Source: Hyphomonadaceae bacterium (GTDB lineage Bacteria > Pseudomonadota > Alphaproteobacteria > Caulobacterales > Hyphomonadaceae). Taken from it: a stretch of DNA of 64,000 nt. The stretch covers positions 372,001 through 436,000 of the forward strand of contig JANSWU010000001.1 of NCBI GenBank assembly GCA_024743315.1, read 5' to 3'. The translations under genes and the position numbers were made by a program. Numbering within the stretch: the first letter of the stretch is position 1; each line of letters begins with the position of its first letter. A model generated the notes under the pieces. The model saw only the letters and a program-made list of their open reading frames with translations, did no database searches and had not been told where the DNA came from. Of the stretch, positions 55,423 to 60,551 are shown piece by piece.

Positions 55423-57696
55423 ATGACGGACACATCTGCGATCATCGCCGCGATGCAGGCGGAACAAGACGAAGCCTCAGCCAAAGAGCATGGCATCAAT
55501 GCCGAGGAATGGCACCGCCTGATCACGCGGCTCAATCGCAAGCCCAATCTGGTCGAGCTCGGCATCTATTCGGTAATGTGGTCAGAGCATTGCTCGTACA
55601 AATCCTCGCGCCGGCACCTGTCCAAATTCCCGACCAAGAATGAGCATGTGATTCAGGGCCCCGGCGAAAATGCCGGGGTCATCGACATCGGCGATGGCCA
55701 AGCGGCGATCTTCAAGATGGAGAGCCACAACCACCCGTCTTACATCGAGCCTTATCAGGGCGCGGCGACCGGTGTCGGTGGTATTTTACGGGACGTCTTC
55801 ACCATGGGCGCGCGGCCGATTGCACTGGTCAATGCCTTACGCTTTGGCGATCCGAGCCATCCCAAGACGCGCAGTCTGGTGGCGGGCGTGGTCGCCGGGA
55901 TTGGCGGCTATGGCAATTGCGTCGGCGTGCCGACCGTGGCCGGTGAGACCGAGTTCCATAAAGGCTATAATGGCAATATCCTGGTCAATGCGATGGCCGT
56001 CGGGCTCGCGGATCAGGACAAGATTTTCTATGCCCGCGGCGCGACGCCGGGCAATCCGATTTTCTATGTCGGCTCCAAGACGGGCCGCGATGGCATTCAT
56101 GGCGCGACCATGGCCTCGGCCGAATTCTCTGAAGGCGATGAGGACAATCGCCCCACAGTTCAGGTCGGTGATCCGTTCACCGAGAAACTGCTGATTGAAG
56201 CCTGTCTTGAGCTGATGGCGACCGATGCGATCCAGGCGATCCAGGATATGGGCGCGGCGGGCCTGACCTCCTCTTCGGTCGAGATGGCAGACAAAGGCGG
56301 CATCGGCGTGGAGATGGATCTCGACAAAGTCCCGCAGCGCGAGACCGGGATGACCGCCTATGAAATCATGCTGAGCGAGAGCCAGGAGCGCATGCTGATG
56401 GTGCTCAAGCCGGGCAAGGAAGCGCTCGCCAAGCAGATTTTCGACAAATATGACCTTGATGCCGAAGTCATCGGCATGACCACCGATACCGGCCATATGG
56501 TGCTGAAACAATTTGGCGAAGTGGTCTGCGATATTCCGGTGCCGCCGCTGGCTGAAGACGCGCCGAATTATGACCGGTCCTGGGTCGCGCCAAAGAAGCG
56601 CGCGCCGCTCGATCTTTCAAAACATCCCGAGCCTGAAGATTATGGCGAGGTCCTGCTCAAGCTCATGTCATCGCCGGATATGGCCAGCAAACGCTGGATC
56701 TGGGAACAATATGATCGCCACGTCATGGGTGACACGGTCGACAGCTCGCAATCACAAGGCAATGCCGCGATCGTGCGCATTCATGGCACCAAGAAAGCCC
56801 TGGCCATCACCTCTGATTGCACCCCGCGTTATGTCTCAGCTGACCCATATGAAGGTGGCAAGCAAGCGGTGGCCGAGGCCTATCGCAACCTGTCTGCAGT
56901 CGGTGCCAAGCCGATTGCGATCACCGATAATCTCAATTTCGGCAATCCCGAAAAACCAGAGACGATGGGCTATATCGTCAAGGCAATCGAAGGCATGGCG
57001 GAAGCGTGCAAAGAGCTCGATTTCCCGGTCGTGTCCGGCAATGTCAGCCTGTATAATGAGACCGACGGCATCGCCATTCCGCCCACGCCCGTGGTCGGCG
57101 GCGTCGGCCTGATCGAAGATCTCGATAAGATCGCGACGCTGAAAGGCGCGCAGGCGGGTGACGTGCTGATCCTGATCGGCGAGACCAAAGGTCATCTGGG
57201 CGCATCACTTTATGCGCGCGAGATCCTCGGGCTTGATGGCGAAGACGCGGGGCCGCCGCCGCCGGTCGATCTGGCGGTAGAGAAGCGCAATGCCGATTTT
57301 GTCCGCGAGCTGGTCGAGCAAGGCCTGGTCAACGCGGTGCATGATGTCAGCGATGGTGGCGTCGCCTGTGCTGCGGCTGAGATGGCGCTGGCCGGCAATG
57401 TTCACATGAAGCTCCAGGCAGGCGCGGCCAATACTTTGGAGGTGTGCTTTGACGAGAGCCAGGGCCGCGCCGTCTGCACCACGACGAGCGAAAATGTCAG
57501 CCAGATCATAGACCTTGCCGCCGCTGCCGGAGTGCCGGCTCGGCAAATTGGCGACTGCGTGCCCGAAACGTTTGAAGCTGGCCCTGGTATCTTCATCACG
57601 TTCGAAGATGTCGAGAAAGGCCACCTGCTGACACTGGCCCGCCTCCGCGAGGCGCATGAAGGCTGGTTGCCAAACTATATGAGCAAGGTGGACTAG
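55423..57696 (+). CDS. purL: Phosphoribosylformylglycinamidine synthase, large subunit
   Basis: A 757-aa small-type PurL that makes FGAM from FGAR, ATP and ammonia. [21 protein letters not shown] at about residue 46 is the N-terminal signature; [26 protein letters not shown] is the ATP-binding/catalytic His region; [17 protein letters not shown] and [26 protein letters not shown] belong to the two AIRS-like halves. [16 protein letters not shown] ends the second half. The length matches the subunit form that needs PurQ and PurS. Confidence 0.97.
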
Positions 57697-57718
57697 TTTA
57701 GCAGCTCGCCATCGTGCC

Positions 57719-57739
57719 TCTACCGGGGGGATCGGTAGA
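57719..57739 (+). terminator. Possible hairpin after purL
   Basis: TCTACCG (57719-57725) pairs with CGGTAGA (57733-57739) around GGGGGAT, 22 nt after the purL stop. No T-run follows. It is a possible weak terminator or mRNA 3' structure. Confidence 0.35.
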
Positions 57740-57760
57740 AGCGCCTTCACAATCTATCCC

Positions 57761-57855
57761 TGTCATCCCAGAATTTCGCATCGCGAAATATCCGGGACCA
57801 AGTAGTTTAGACGTCTATGTCCCGGATAAATGCTGACGCATTTTCCGGGATGACA
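57761..57855. repeat. 95-bp cloverleaf palindromic repeat, copy 1
   Basis: This 95-nt element folds, by eye, into a complete four-way junction. The outer stem is 57761-57772 with 57844-57855 (12 bp, one mismatch). Arm 1 is ATTTCGC-ATC-GCGAAAT at 57773-57789. Arm 2 is a 9-bp stem, ATCCGGGAC (57790-57798) with GTCCCGGAT (57819-57827), whose 20-nt loop holds the palindrome TAGACGTCTA. Arm 3 is AAATGC-TGAC-GCATTT at 57828-57843. The segments add up to 95 with no unpaired junction base. A same-length copy lies at 58203-58297 in the same orientation. Confidence 0.93.
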
Positions 57856-57884
57856 AAGCAACTATGTTCTTGTATTGTTCCGGC

Positions 57885-58184
57885 ATGAGGGATCACAATT
57901 ACTTCGTCTATATTCTCGCTTCAAAGCGAAACGGAGTGTTGTATACGGGCATGACTAATGACCTTGCCCGCCGAATGTGGGAACACAAAACCGTTTATAT
58001 CAAAGGGTTTACGCACAAGTATGGCGTCAAAAACCTCGTCTGGTTTGAACATCACACGGACGTCAATTTTGCCATCGCGCGGGAGAAAAGAATTAAGCGC
58101 TGGCGGCGCGCTTGGAAACTGCACCTTATCGAGAACGAGAATCCCGAATGGATTGATTTGTATCCGAATCTGCTCGCAGCTTAA
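57885..58184 (+). CDS. GIY-YIG nuclease family protein
   Basis: A 99-aa single-domain nuclease of the small UPF0213/COG2827 type. The motif pair reads YFVYIL (residues 6-11) and YTG (20-22). The catalytic Arg is in NDLARRMWEHK (Arg29/30, His34), and the metal-binding Glu67 lies in AIAREKRIKRWRRAWK, a family signature followed by ENPEWIDLYP. These enzymes cut DNA; their cellular role is mostly unknown. It is flanked on both sides by a 95-bp structured repeat. An ATG at 57864 would add seven residues; the family usually begins near the ATG chosen here. No clear ribosome site is visible. Confidence 0.92.
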   Translation: MRDHNYFVYILASKRNGVLYTGMTNDLARRMWEHKTVYIKGFTHKYGVKNLVWFEHHTDVNFAIAREKRIKRWRRAWKLHLIENENPEWIDLYPNLLAA

Positions 58185-58202
58185 CGTGATTTGCTGTTGA
58201 AA

Positions 58203-58297
58203 TGTCATCCCGGAATTTCGCATTGCGAAATATCCGGGACCCAGTAACTCAAAGCGCTAGGTTCAGGATAAATGCTGACGCATTTTCCGGGATGACA
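58203..58297. repeat. 95-bp cloverleaf palindromic repeat, copy 2
   Basis: Same length and orientation as the copy at 57761-57855. The first 39 nt differ at two positions and the last 32 nt are identical. Differences concentrate in the loop and distal right arm of arm 2. The outer stem (58203-58214 with 58286-58297) is a perfect 12 bp; arm 1 (58215-58231) is perfect, with its single change in the loop; arm 2 (58232-58269) carries two changes on the right side; arm 3 (58270-58285) is intact. The arm 2 loop holds a different small palindrome, AGCGCT. Confidence 0.93.
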
Positions 58298-58317
58298 GCT
58301 CGTTTCGTTAAGGCATC

Positions 58318-58986
58318 CTAAAACCGGTAACTCAGCCCGACCTGCACCACCGGCCAGAGCTCATAATCCTCGATCTCGCTTTCGATATCTTGGATTTCCT
58401 GCGCCAGGGCCGTTTGCACGACCGGGTCATTCGACAAAGTGCCGCCAACCGCCTCCAAGGTAACATCGCCCGAACCGAACAGGGCGGCGCCGGCCATTAG
58501 GTTGAAGCCCCAATTGCCGCTACCTTCAAAGGTCGTGTCAAAGCCGAGCCCGAGGAACGGCGCGACATCATCAAACGAGACATCGCCTTCCAACCGGCCA
58601 TATTCGGCAGGCGTAAAGGTGACCCCGCCAATATCAACCGCAACATCTGAGCTTGCGACGAGATCAATATCCTTGCCGCCGGCATAGGCCCCGCCGGTGA
58701 TGAAGAAGCTGCCGCCGAAGGGATGCACGTCAACAAACGCGCCAAGACCGGAAAAGTCGAGATCGCCATCATAGCTGATATCGTCGACATCAATGGATTC
58801 CTCAAAGGTGAGATAATTGGCGCCCGCGCGCAGCTGGACATAATCATTGACCTGGAACTGGCCTTCAATTGTGCCACCCATGGTGCCGATCCCGCCGGAT
58901 ATGGCAAAATCGCCATCGGCACTGGCCGCGCCGCTGCATCCGATTACGATGGCGGCCGCTAAGGCTGCCTTGAGCGTGTAGGTCAT
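58318..58986 (-). CDS. Small outer-membrane beta-barrel protein
   Basis: A 222-aa protein with signal peptide (TYTLKAALAAAIVIGCSGAASA) and a barrel of alternating strands: FAISGGIGTMGGTIEGQFQVNDYVQLRAGANYLTF, then GLGAFVDVHPFGGSFFITGGAYAGG, APFLGLGFDTTF and WGFNLMAGAALFG. It ends VVQVGLSYRF with the terminal Phe needed for outer-membrane assembly. The pattern GFNLMAGA...LSYRF resembles OmpW/OprF-type eight-stranded barrels. Function is unknown. The ATG at 58986 has GGGAGC 6-7 nt upstream; a GTG one codon earlier is possible. Confidence 0.82.
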   Translation of the reverse strand: MTYTLKAALAAAIVIGCSGAASADGDFAISGGIGTMGGTIEGQFQVNDYVQLRAGANYLTFEESIDVDDISYDGDLDFSGLGAFVDVHPFGGSFFITGGAYAGGKDIDLVASSDVAVDIGGVTFTPAEYGRLEGDVSFDDVAPFLGLGFDTTFEGSGNWGFNLMAGAALFGSGDVTLEAVGGTLSNDPVVQTALAQEIQDIESEIEDYELWPVVQVGLSYRF

Positions 58987-59044
58987 CACTTTGCTCCCGA
59001 TTTGGTCGCCCTAAGGTCGACCGAGGCGGTGAAACAAGTATGAA

Positions 59045-59084: not shown

Positions 59085-60551
59085 TCAGATCAGCTCATAA
59101 TCCTCGAGCTTCACGGTCTCCACCGCAGCGGCATAATCGCGAGTGTGCGAGGACCAGTTCTGGGTGATCTTGCCATGCGCATTCTTGTACCAGCTATTGC
59201 AAGCCGGATCCGCCCAGACGGTGTTTTCCAGATCGGCCTGGACCTGCGCATTGAACCGGTCCTGCGCCGCTTTGGTCGGGACCATGGCCGCCTTACCGAC
59301 CTCTCCAAGCCCATCCAGCGCTTTGACCGCATACTCCACCTGCCGCTCGAGCATGAAGGTGATCGCATTGTGCCCGAGATTGGTGTTTGGGCCATACAGC
59401 ACGAACAGGTTTGGAAAGTCGGCCACGGTGATGCCGAGATACGCTTCGGGATAGTCTTTCCAGACTTCGTTTAAATACTGCCCACGGCGCCCCTGCACAT
59501 CGACTGACCAGCGCCAGCCCGTGGTCTCAAAGCCAGTCGCGAACGCGATCACATCCAGATCATGATGAGTACCGGAGACGGTTTGGATACCGGTCGCATC
59601 AATCGTCTCAATGCCATCGGTTTCAAGCGTGACATTGTCCTTCATCAAAGCCGGGAAATAATCGTCAGAAATCAGGATGCGGCGACAGCCAATCGGGTAA
59701 TCCGGCGTCAGCTTTTCCCGAAGCTCAGGATCCGGCACCTGCGATTCCAGCTGGTTCATCGCAATCCGATGATAGGCGGCCCGCCCTTCCGGGGTCCATT
59801 TGAAGGTTTGCCAGAAAAACTCGTCCGCCTGCTCATATATAATCTGACGATTCATTGCGCCGATCTTCATAGCGAGTTCCGGATTGGTGCCGAGCAGCGC
59901 GCCCTCTTCGGCGCTCATGGCAATATCACGGCGCGGAATGACCCAGTTCGGGCTGCGCTGGAAGACGACCAGTTCTTCGACGGTTTCGGCAAGCTCGGGG
60001 ATGATCTGCACGGCGCTCGCCGCACAACCAATGATCCCAACCCGCTTGCCTGCCATCTCGATCGAATGATCCCATTCCGCCGAATGCGTAATCGATCCCC
60101 CGAATGCCTCTTTCCCGGGGATCGCAGGCCAGTTCGGTCGGTTAAGCTGTCCGAGCGCACCAATAACGGCATCGCCCTCATAACGCGCGCCGCGCGCCGT
60201 GGTCACGGTCCATTTTTTGGCACCTTCATCCCAGACAGCGCTCACCGCTTCATCGTCAAGCTTGACGTTCGGGCGCAGCTGATATCGGTCCGTGATCTCT
60301 TCGGCATAGGCCTGGATTTCCCCGCCCTGCGGATAAGCGCGGCTCCAATTCACACTTTGGGCAAAGCTAAACTGATACAGCGCTACTGGCACGTCACAAG
60401 CGACCCCTGGATAGGTGTTCTGCGCCCAGGTGCCGCCGACTTTGTCCATTTTTTCAACAATGGTGAAACTGTGCCCAGCCTCTTGCAGTTTGATCGCTGC
60501 GCAGAGCCCGCCCAGTCCAGCCCCAATGATAATGACGTGCTTTCCCGCCAT
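59085..60551 (-). CDS. Flavin-containing Baeyer-Villiger-type monooxygenase
   Basis: A 488-aa FAD/NADPH monooxygenase. FAD-binding IIIGAGLGGLCAAIKLQEAG is at residues 7-26. The Baeyer-Villiger fingerprint F-x-G-x-x-x-H-x-x-x-W is present as FGGSITHSAEW. The NADPH-binding Rossmann motif is VGIIGCAASAVQIIPEL, and FATGFETTGW is a further family motif. Such enzymes turn ketones into esters or oxidise heteroatoms and are often paired with alkane or cyclic-ketone degradation. AGGAGG precedes the ATG at 60551; an upstream in-frame start is not needed. The substrate is unknown. Confidence 0.92.
   Translation of the reverse strand: MAGKHVIIIGAGLGGLCAAIKLQEAGHSFTIVEKMDKVGGTWAQNTYPGVACDVPVALYQFSFAQSVNWSRAYPQGGEIQAYAEEITDRYQLRPNVKLDDEAVSAVWDEGAKKWTVTTARGARYEGDAVIGALGQLNRPNWPAIPGKEAFGGSITHSAEWDHSIEMAGKRVGIIGCAASAVQIIPELAETVEELVVFQRSPNWVIPRRDIAMSAEEGALLGTNPELAMKIGAMNRQIIYEQADEFFWQTFKWTPEGRAAYHRIAMNQLESQVPDPELREKLTPDYPIGCRRILISDDYFPALMKDNVTLETDGIETIDATGIQTVSGTHHDLDVIAFATGFETTGWRWSVDVQGRRGQYLNEVWKDYPEAYLGITVADFPNLFVLYGPNTNLGHNAITFMLERQVEYAVKALDGLGEVGKAAMVPTKAAQDRFNAQVQADLENTVWADPACNSWYKNAHGKITQNWSSHTRDYAAAVETVKLEDYELI

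Follow-up and report, generated by a model that had tools for sequence, protein, structure and literature searches.

A small GIY-YIG nuclease gene between head-to-head palindromic repeats in a Hyphomonadaceae genome, and its probable role as a repeat-mobilizing enzyme

We analyzed a 64,000-nt stretch of DNA (the window) from a Hyphomonadaceae bacterium (GCA_024743315.1, contig JANSWU010000001.1, positions 372,001 to 436,000), in which a small gene for a GIY-YIG nuclease lies between two cloverleaf-like repeats, downstream of a gene that we take, from its sequence, to be purL (Table 1). An earlier note on this DNA had described the repeats as two 95-nt copies in direct orientation, each a complete four-way junction, with the nuclease gene as the only gene between them. 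Both copies are present as described, and folded as DNA they reach -26.7 and -25.6 kcal/mol (copies 1 and 2) compared to shuffle means of -9.6 and -10.3 (z = -7.2 and -6.2; 0/200 shuffles equally good), the 12+17+38+16+12 four-way partition being recovered in both. The nuclease open reading frame (ORF) has an alternative in-frame ATG at 57864, giving 106 instead of 99 amino acids (aa), and the other ORFs listed for the interval between the copies overlap the nuclease ORF out of frame. The best reading of the sequence comparisons below is that this locus belongs to a widespread two-part system, in which a small GIY-YIG nuclease gene is paired with a cognate, CGTC/TGTC-tagged repetitive extragenic palindrome (REP).

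Table 1. Features of the nuclease locus in the window, and loci of the second nuclease clade
Feature	Position or locus	Strand	Basis or description
purL, host gene upstream of the REP-nuclease unit	55423..57696	+	orthologous loci
Upstream cloverleaf unit, read as a TGTC-tagged head-to-head REP dimer	57761..57855	+	sequence, fold, covariation over nine genomic copies
Upstream unit, anatomy	outer stem 57761-57772/57844-57855; arm 1 57773-57789; arm 2 57790-57827; arm 3 57828-57843		
Left REP half of upstream unit	57761..57798	+	putative unit, by analogy to CGTC REP layout; TGTC tag, TCCCAGA-arm-TCCGGGA compound hairpin, CC tail
Right REP half of upstream unit, inverted	57819..57855	-	putative unit
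GIY-YIG nuclease gene, 99 aa	57885..58184	+	ORF and Pfam match
Downstream cloverleaf unit, orientation as upstream unit, 86% identity	58203..58297	+	sequence, fold
Downstream unit, anatomy	outer stem 58203-58214/58286-58297; arm 1 58215-58231; arm 2 58232-58269; arm 3 58270-58285		
Downstream host gene	58318..58989	-	secreted-barrel-protein look, described by eye
Second-clade loci	L374, L384, L385, L393-L403		

Each half of the 95-nt unit is itself a hairpin (TGTC tag, TCCCGGA, arm hairpin, TCCGGGA, CC tail), and by its sequence the whole unit is two such halves facing each other, i.e., a head-to-head REP dimer or REPIN (REP doublet forming hairpins). A DNA search of the 3.31-Mb window genome (G000) returned 15 matches, which resolve to ten full units of ~94-110 nt and one partial unit once overlaps are merged; only the two window units adjoin a GIY-YIG gene. 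Across nine of these units, the four helices are paired in 96% of cells (slid versions of the structure, ≤50%), 5 of 34 pairs are changed on both sides (15/500 shuffles reach that), and the covariation score is 0.120 compared to 0.060 for shuffled copies (0/500 as high), with compensated arm versions AAGCTC/GAGCTT, AAATGC/GCATTT and ATTTCGC/GCGAAAT; further pair types give no advantage over shuffled copies (272/500). The earlier claim that the stems stay complementary is thus borne out by covariation over the genomic copies, but each window copy has an uncompensated mismatch (a single one in the outer stem of copy 1; in arm 2 of copy 2, a single mismatch plus a wobble pair). Similarly, the alignment varies most at the tip of arm 2, as had been noted, but the small palindromes seen there are not conserved across the repeat family.

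At another GIY-YIG gene of this genome (C4:63334), the upstream palindromic repeat is of a different kind, and the flanks on the two sides show no match to one another (local alignment score S = 8.0). A GATACCTGCGCAGGCAGGTATC-type palindromic repeat lies beside this second gene and occurs nuclease-free after purL in two relatives, G014 and G015 (L003 1740-1850; L280; L276). The genome has no Y1 transposase (PF01797) match at 1e-5. The repeats were also considered as an RNA family, which we rejected: Rfam over positions 57000-59000 gave one sub-threshold match, off the repeats, and no intron.

At the level of sequence, the association between these nuclease genes and REPs is well established. 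We compared the 250 nt on each side of a gene, scoring a repeat as shared at S ≥15. In an order set drawn from the matches listed for the window protein in 101 relative genomes, the flanks share a repeat at 70 of 90 loci, compared to 4 of 94 other ORFs of those loci and 0/450 shuffled pairs. At the unchanged cut-off, a held-out set of further, mostly more distant matches from the same listing gives 25/56 loci versus 0/83 control ORFs (L164 was excluded for its short flank, and L167 gave no match). Flanks paired between different loci reach S ≥15 in 212 and 100 of 2000 draws. A phylum sample, in which 140 of 299 genomes have a nuclease match at 1e-3, shows shared flanks at 19/27 loci and 1/10 control ORFs. 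A scan of named genomes confirmed at least 569 relatives, of which the best 80 loci were kept; according to record titles these span Alpha-, Gamma- and Deltaproteobacteria, Thiobacillus, Massilia, Omnitrophota, Bacteroidetes, Nitrospirales, Chloroflexi and candidate phyla, and 58 of the 80 have S ≥15, compared to 9/176 control ORFs. The enrichment of repeats beside small GIY-YIG genes, which the earlier note had proposed to check, is therefore strong and withstands several controls. A few places recur between the locus sets (L191 and L065 are one place, as apparently are L249 and L040), and the named loci L227 and L243 come from one isolate.

A detector that ignores stem sequence, requiring only [CT]GTC immediately followed by a hairpin, gives a consistent picture. 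CGTC-REPs occur at 3.91 per kb near the gene versus 0.231 per kb further away in the best 80 named loci; 63 of these have one within 250 nt on any side, and shuffling their flanks leaves one in 1/80. The detector is positive at 20/27 loci of the phylum sample and at 23/90 and 13/56 of the two order sets, where the counts are low because it misses the interrupted-stem type found in the window. Taxa named in a 2013 survey of CGTC REPs (PMC3733652) fit as well: CGTC lies on both sides of the nuclease gene in Azospirillum lipoferum and Novosphingobium, and the gene in a Neisseria gonorrhoeae record sits inside an array of CGTCATTCCC repeats. Repeats with the layout given in that survey flank GIY-YIG genes, for example CGTCATTCCCGCGAAAGCGGGAATCCA at L217, L229 and L266. 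A related palindrome at the Sinorhizobium meliloti locus is not called by the detector. In a plasmid collection, 34 records matched, several of them chromosome-sized. On a Planktothrix plasmid (L368), a GIY-YIG gene of this family lies between type IIL restriction and DISARM helicase genes and is flanked by repeats of another type.

Since REPs are common (a model of one repeat type, R1, matches in 71 of the 101 relatives), the genes might be passive hitchhikers, gathered as mobile small genes by REPs that are recombination-prone or crowd intergenic space. The CGTC hairpins found within 250 nt of 40/176 named-set control ORFs fit such a view; the flanks of these ORFs can overlap the nuclease's own REPs. 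However, REPs on both sides occur at 43 of the best 80 named loci and at only 6/176 control ORFs, and other mobile or same-fold genes do not show the pattern. Under one rule for all families (4 GIY, 11 Y1_Tnp and 7 ParE loci were left out at contig ends), CGTC hairpins lie on any side of 16/23 GIY, 1/19 Y1_Tnp and 1/23 ParE loci, and they are found at 0/19 lower-scoring, YhbQ-like GIY-YIG loci, of which 1/19 has matching flanks. Matching flanks of other kinds occur at 5/19 Y1_Tnp loci. A same-fold control of 16 weak GIY-YIG matches (15 usable) has CGTC hairpins at 0/15 and matching flanks of other kinds at 6/15; one of the 15 (L377) is a broken first-family gene, whose CGTC palindrome escapes the detector because the loop slightly exceeds its limit. 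GTAG hairpins are found at 0/23 GIY loci, by a detector that is unvalidated for GTAG REPs, as it finds them at only 1/19 Y1_Tnp loci. Hitchhiking also leaves the matching of repeat type to nuclease identity (see below) unexplained, and we regard it as very improbable.

The two components also co-occur at the level of genomes. Of the 299 genomes, 38 carry five or more copies of a single CGTC pattern, and 23 of these have a strong GIY match (best E below 1e-15), compared to 48 of the 261 others (odds ratio 6.8; p = 1.8e-7, a guide only because the genomes are related and many are drafts). The REP-rich genomes lacking a strong GIY match number 15/38, including G136, G261, G152 and G252. Among the 101 relatives, R1 matches are associated with GIY presence (odds ratio 4.1, p = 0.0036), a weaker test than those on flanks because R1 models one repeat type only.

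Repeat types follow nuclease types. At non-syntenic loci, the fraction of pairs sharing a repeat type rises with protein identity, from ~2% (identity under 45%) to 50% (identity 60-70%) and 79-88% (identity over 70%), and the protein and repeat matrices are correlated (0.406; 0/1000 permutations as high; 10,132 non-syntenic pairs from different genomes). Where a genome has more than one locus (43 genomes, 122 loci), the two flanks of one gene match at 81 loci, and flanks of same-genome paralogues match in only 18 of 256 comparisons. This suggests that a nuclease tends to own a specific repeat.

Within 300 nt of the gene, a REP is detected on both sides at 56 of 107 loci (80 named and 27 phylum) and on neither at 24. 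At 39 of the 56 two-sided loci the nearest REPs are inverted with respect to each other, with the tag outside and the tail towards the gene ('+ gene -'). Median distances to the nearest REP are 14 nt upstream of the start codon and 11.5 nt downstream of the stop codon. Where '+-' pairs have no gene between them and are less than 120 nt apart, the median spacer is 29.5 nt. This layout and the short distances suggest that the gene usually occupies the place of the dimer's spacer. A second form, with a whole REP dimer on each side of the gene, is seen in the window and in A. lipoferum. Bracketing by whole units, as described by the earlier note, therefore holds for the window, but at most related loci with two-sided REPs the gene lies between two inverted REP halves.

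Comparison of orthologous sites reveals occupied and empty states. In A. lipoferum 4B a REP-nuclease-REP segment lies between sufB and sufC (gap of 617 nt), while the same gap measures 91 nt in A. ramasamyi, 87 nt in A. oryzae, 129 nt in B510 and 55 nt in A. thermophilum, with neither the gene nor such a repeat. The sufB-sufC junction of Shinella sp. PSBB067 carries a different nuclease with a different REP (L364 and L391 being the shared Azospirillum/Shinella site), which is most simply read as an independent arrival. No short target-site duplication is visible at sufB-sufC, the one site examined for it. Among 31 genomes searched for purL (28 matched), a GIY-YIG gene follows purL in the window genome and in G012; a less similar one (47%) lies downstream of purL in G064, and a case in G028 was found separately. 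The gene is thus not universal at this locus, a point the earlier note had raised: G014 retains both window neighbors without the nuclease gene or a repeat of the window family, the 79%-identical match to the window's downstream gene ending 126 nt from the purL stop, and downstream of purL both G001 and G007 lack gene and repeat alike. At the few sites read closely (purL, sufB and a third gene) the unit sits at the 3' end of a gene.

Long flank duplications across the unit (74-134 nt, ~90% identity) are present at 3 of 252 loci: L022 (G012), L067 (G013) and L156 (G036), the remaining rows of the duplication listing being repeats. In the first two, the duplicated segment is a gene 3' end including the stop, namely that of purL in G012 and of a gene ending VDGGLTIKNA in G013. 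These duplications are far longer than usual target-site duplications. A separate 19-nt near-identical stretch in the window (58358-58376 and 59092-59110) lies at the 3' ends of two neighboring minus-strand genes, both of which encode EDYEL near the C-terminus; the likeness is probably due to chance.

These sites bear on the main rival explanation, in which the gene is a free-standing homing endonuclease that targets REP dimers: REPs would spread by other means, and the gene would home into REPIN spacers through double-strand break repair. The four Azospirillum relatives lack both REPs and gene, so that the segment seems to have been gained or lost whole, though a REP could have come before the gene. 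Whole REP dimers on each side, in the window and A. lipoferum, also argue against homing, and a REP type particular to each paralogue of a genome is not something that homing alone would require. We consider this explanation unlikely.

The window protein has a sole Pfam match, PF01541 (GIY-YIG; 1.1e-15), and a structure model (predicted local distance difference test, pLDDT, 92.5), whose nearest solved structure is 1zg2 (UPF0213; Foldseek E 5e-4), with Slx1 next. In an alignment of 49 sequences including the window protein, Y9, Y20, E67 and N86 are invariant and R30 is at least 90% conserved; we take these five to be the catalytic residues. The protein is matched in 72 of the 101 relative genomes, often by several paralogues each. 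As a defense gene it has no PADLOC match, and as a phage gene it has no match at 1e-5 among 50,697 phage records and one weak PHROG of unknown function; both possibilities were set aside.

Retention of the motif residues across diverse hosts, together with the operator-like short distance between REP and gene, would also suit a host protein, domesticated for processing or clearing REP cruciforms, with the adjoining REPs as regulatory sites or relics and no movement at present; in PMC8266576, TnpA-REP is described as a domesticated transposase. Against domestication, the patchy presence among relatives, paralogues with their own repeats, empty sites and plasmid copies all look mobile. We find this explanation rather improbable.

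Beyond what the sequences show directly (the association with its specificity and breadth, the pairing of repeat types with nuclease types, the head-to-head layout and the empty sites), we propose that cutting and mobilization may be carried out by the nuclease itself. It is probable, in our view, that the protein is a REP-associated nuclease, analogous but unrelated to RAYT (REP-associated tyrosine transposase), that recognizes its own folded REP and mobilizes REP-bounded DNA. The autonomous form would be REP, nuclease gene and inverted REP, and the dispersed cloverleafs (REPINs) would be its gene-less, non-autonomous copies. The nuclease may recognize its REP as a hairpin or cruciform, in single-stranded or extruded DNA, and nick or cut at or near the tag; the REP-bounded segment might then enter a new site by copying or joining, and host repair would complete the process. 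The element loosely like REP/RAYT suggested by the earlier note is supported in this form, but its cloverleaf is a REP dimer resembling the CGTC superfamily and not a free-standing novelty.

The matching flanks of other kinds in the weak GIY-YIG control led to a second repeat family being noticed. In a second clade of small GIY-YIG nucleases (11 loci scoring 98 bits or more), CTCAGGATGA or TTCGACAAGCTCAGGATGA-type repeats lie within 250 nt of the gene, on one side or both, at 11/11 loci, in a search allowing up to three mismatches in the long form; these repeats occur at 0/19 lower-scoring loci, and CGTC hairpins in neither group. Because the motif was picked after some of these loci had been viewed, this pair is a lightly tested extension. 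On balance we lean towards a broader view, in which small GIY-YIG nucleases are dedicated mobilizing enzymes for a large class of palindromic repeats, independent clades steer their own repeats (including the second, with CTCAGGATGA), and REP-nuclease-REP, at less than 400 bp when plain, forms an unnamed class of minimal mobile elements whose driver would be a structure-selective GIY-YIG nuclease. If so, two unrelated nuclease chemistries (HUH and GIY-YIG) would have converged on REP-type repeats, and a role is suggested for many genes whose sole annotation is 'GIY-YIG nuclease family protein', such as the relatives confirmed here.

The closest known repeats are the CGTC REPs. In Di Nocera, De Gregorio and Rocco (2013; PMC3733652), REPs are divided into GTAG and CGTC superfamilies, the CGTC tag often changing to TGTC; CGTC REPs are mostly alphaproteobacterial head-to-head dimers, include Neisseria CGTC-1 (dRS3) and RPE-6/RPE-4 of Rickettsia conorii, and "apparently lack a dedicated transposase". 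The main text of that paper has 0 occurrences of 'GIY', and no literature linking GIY-YIG genes to REPs was found, as judged from titles and abstract openings, with bioRxiv and most subscription journals outside the scope. The nuclease may therefore supply the mobilizing enzyme missing from this large repeat class as reported in 2013 (PMC3733652), and a specific candidate, with a matched repeat per enzyme, makes the question of a dedicated enzyme testable. The repeats described here share with CGTC REPs the CGTC/TGTC tag, a palindromic stem, a CCA-like tail, a mostly head-to-head dimeric state and an alphaproteobacterial bias: the window units begin TGTCATCCC, many named loci carry CGTC/TGTC hairpins, and about ten full units, two of them at the nuclease gene, are dispersed over the window genome. 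CGTC REPs have stems of 8-9 bp with a 4-5 nt loop, as do many of the related loci, but the window unit has a 7-bp stem with an inner arm hairpin; because of this longer interrupted stem we call the window repeat CGTC-like, not a full member.

Among nucleases, the fold is common to UPF0213/YhbQ-like proteins, of which the 19 lower-scoring loci above lack the CGTC hairpin, and to Slx1, which cuts branched DNA but is eukaryotic and works with Slx4. GIY-YIG homing endonucleases of the I-TevI type share the catalytic fold and, likely, selfish behavior. Unlike them, the window nuclease is a lone 99-aa domain with no room for a separate DNA-binding domain, there is no intron family match at its locus, and it is bounded by palindromic repeats that are also dispersed elsewhere. 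MITEs (miniature inverted-repeat transposable elements) and insertion sequences likewise include short, non-autonomous inverted-repeat copies of a gene-bearing unit, but no known transposase domain is found here, nor a short target-site duplication at sufB-sufC. In organization there is a likeness to RAYT/TnpA-REP REPtrons and REPINs, in which an enzyme gene is flanked by its own REPs, gene-less dimers are dispersed and enzyme and repeat coevolve. RAYT is an HUH tyrosine transposase (PF01797) acting with GTAG-tagged repeats, whereas the enzyme here is a GIY-YIG protein and the tag is CGTC/TGTC; GIY-YIG nucleases may thus play for CGTC-type REPs the role that HUH-type RAYTs play for GTAG REPs, by an unrelated chemistry.
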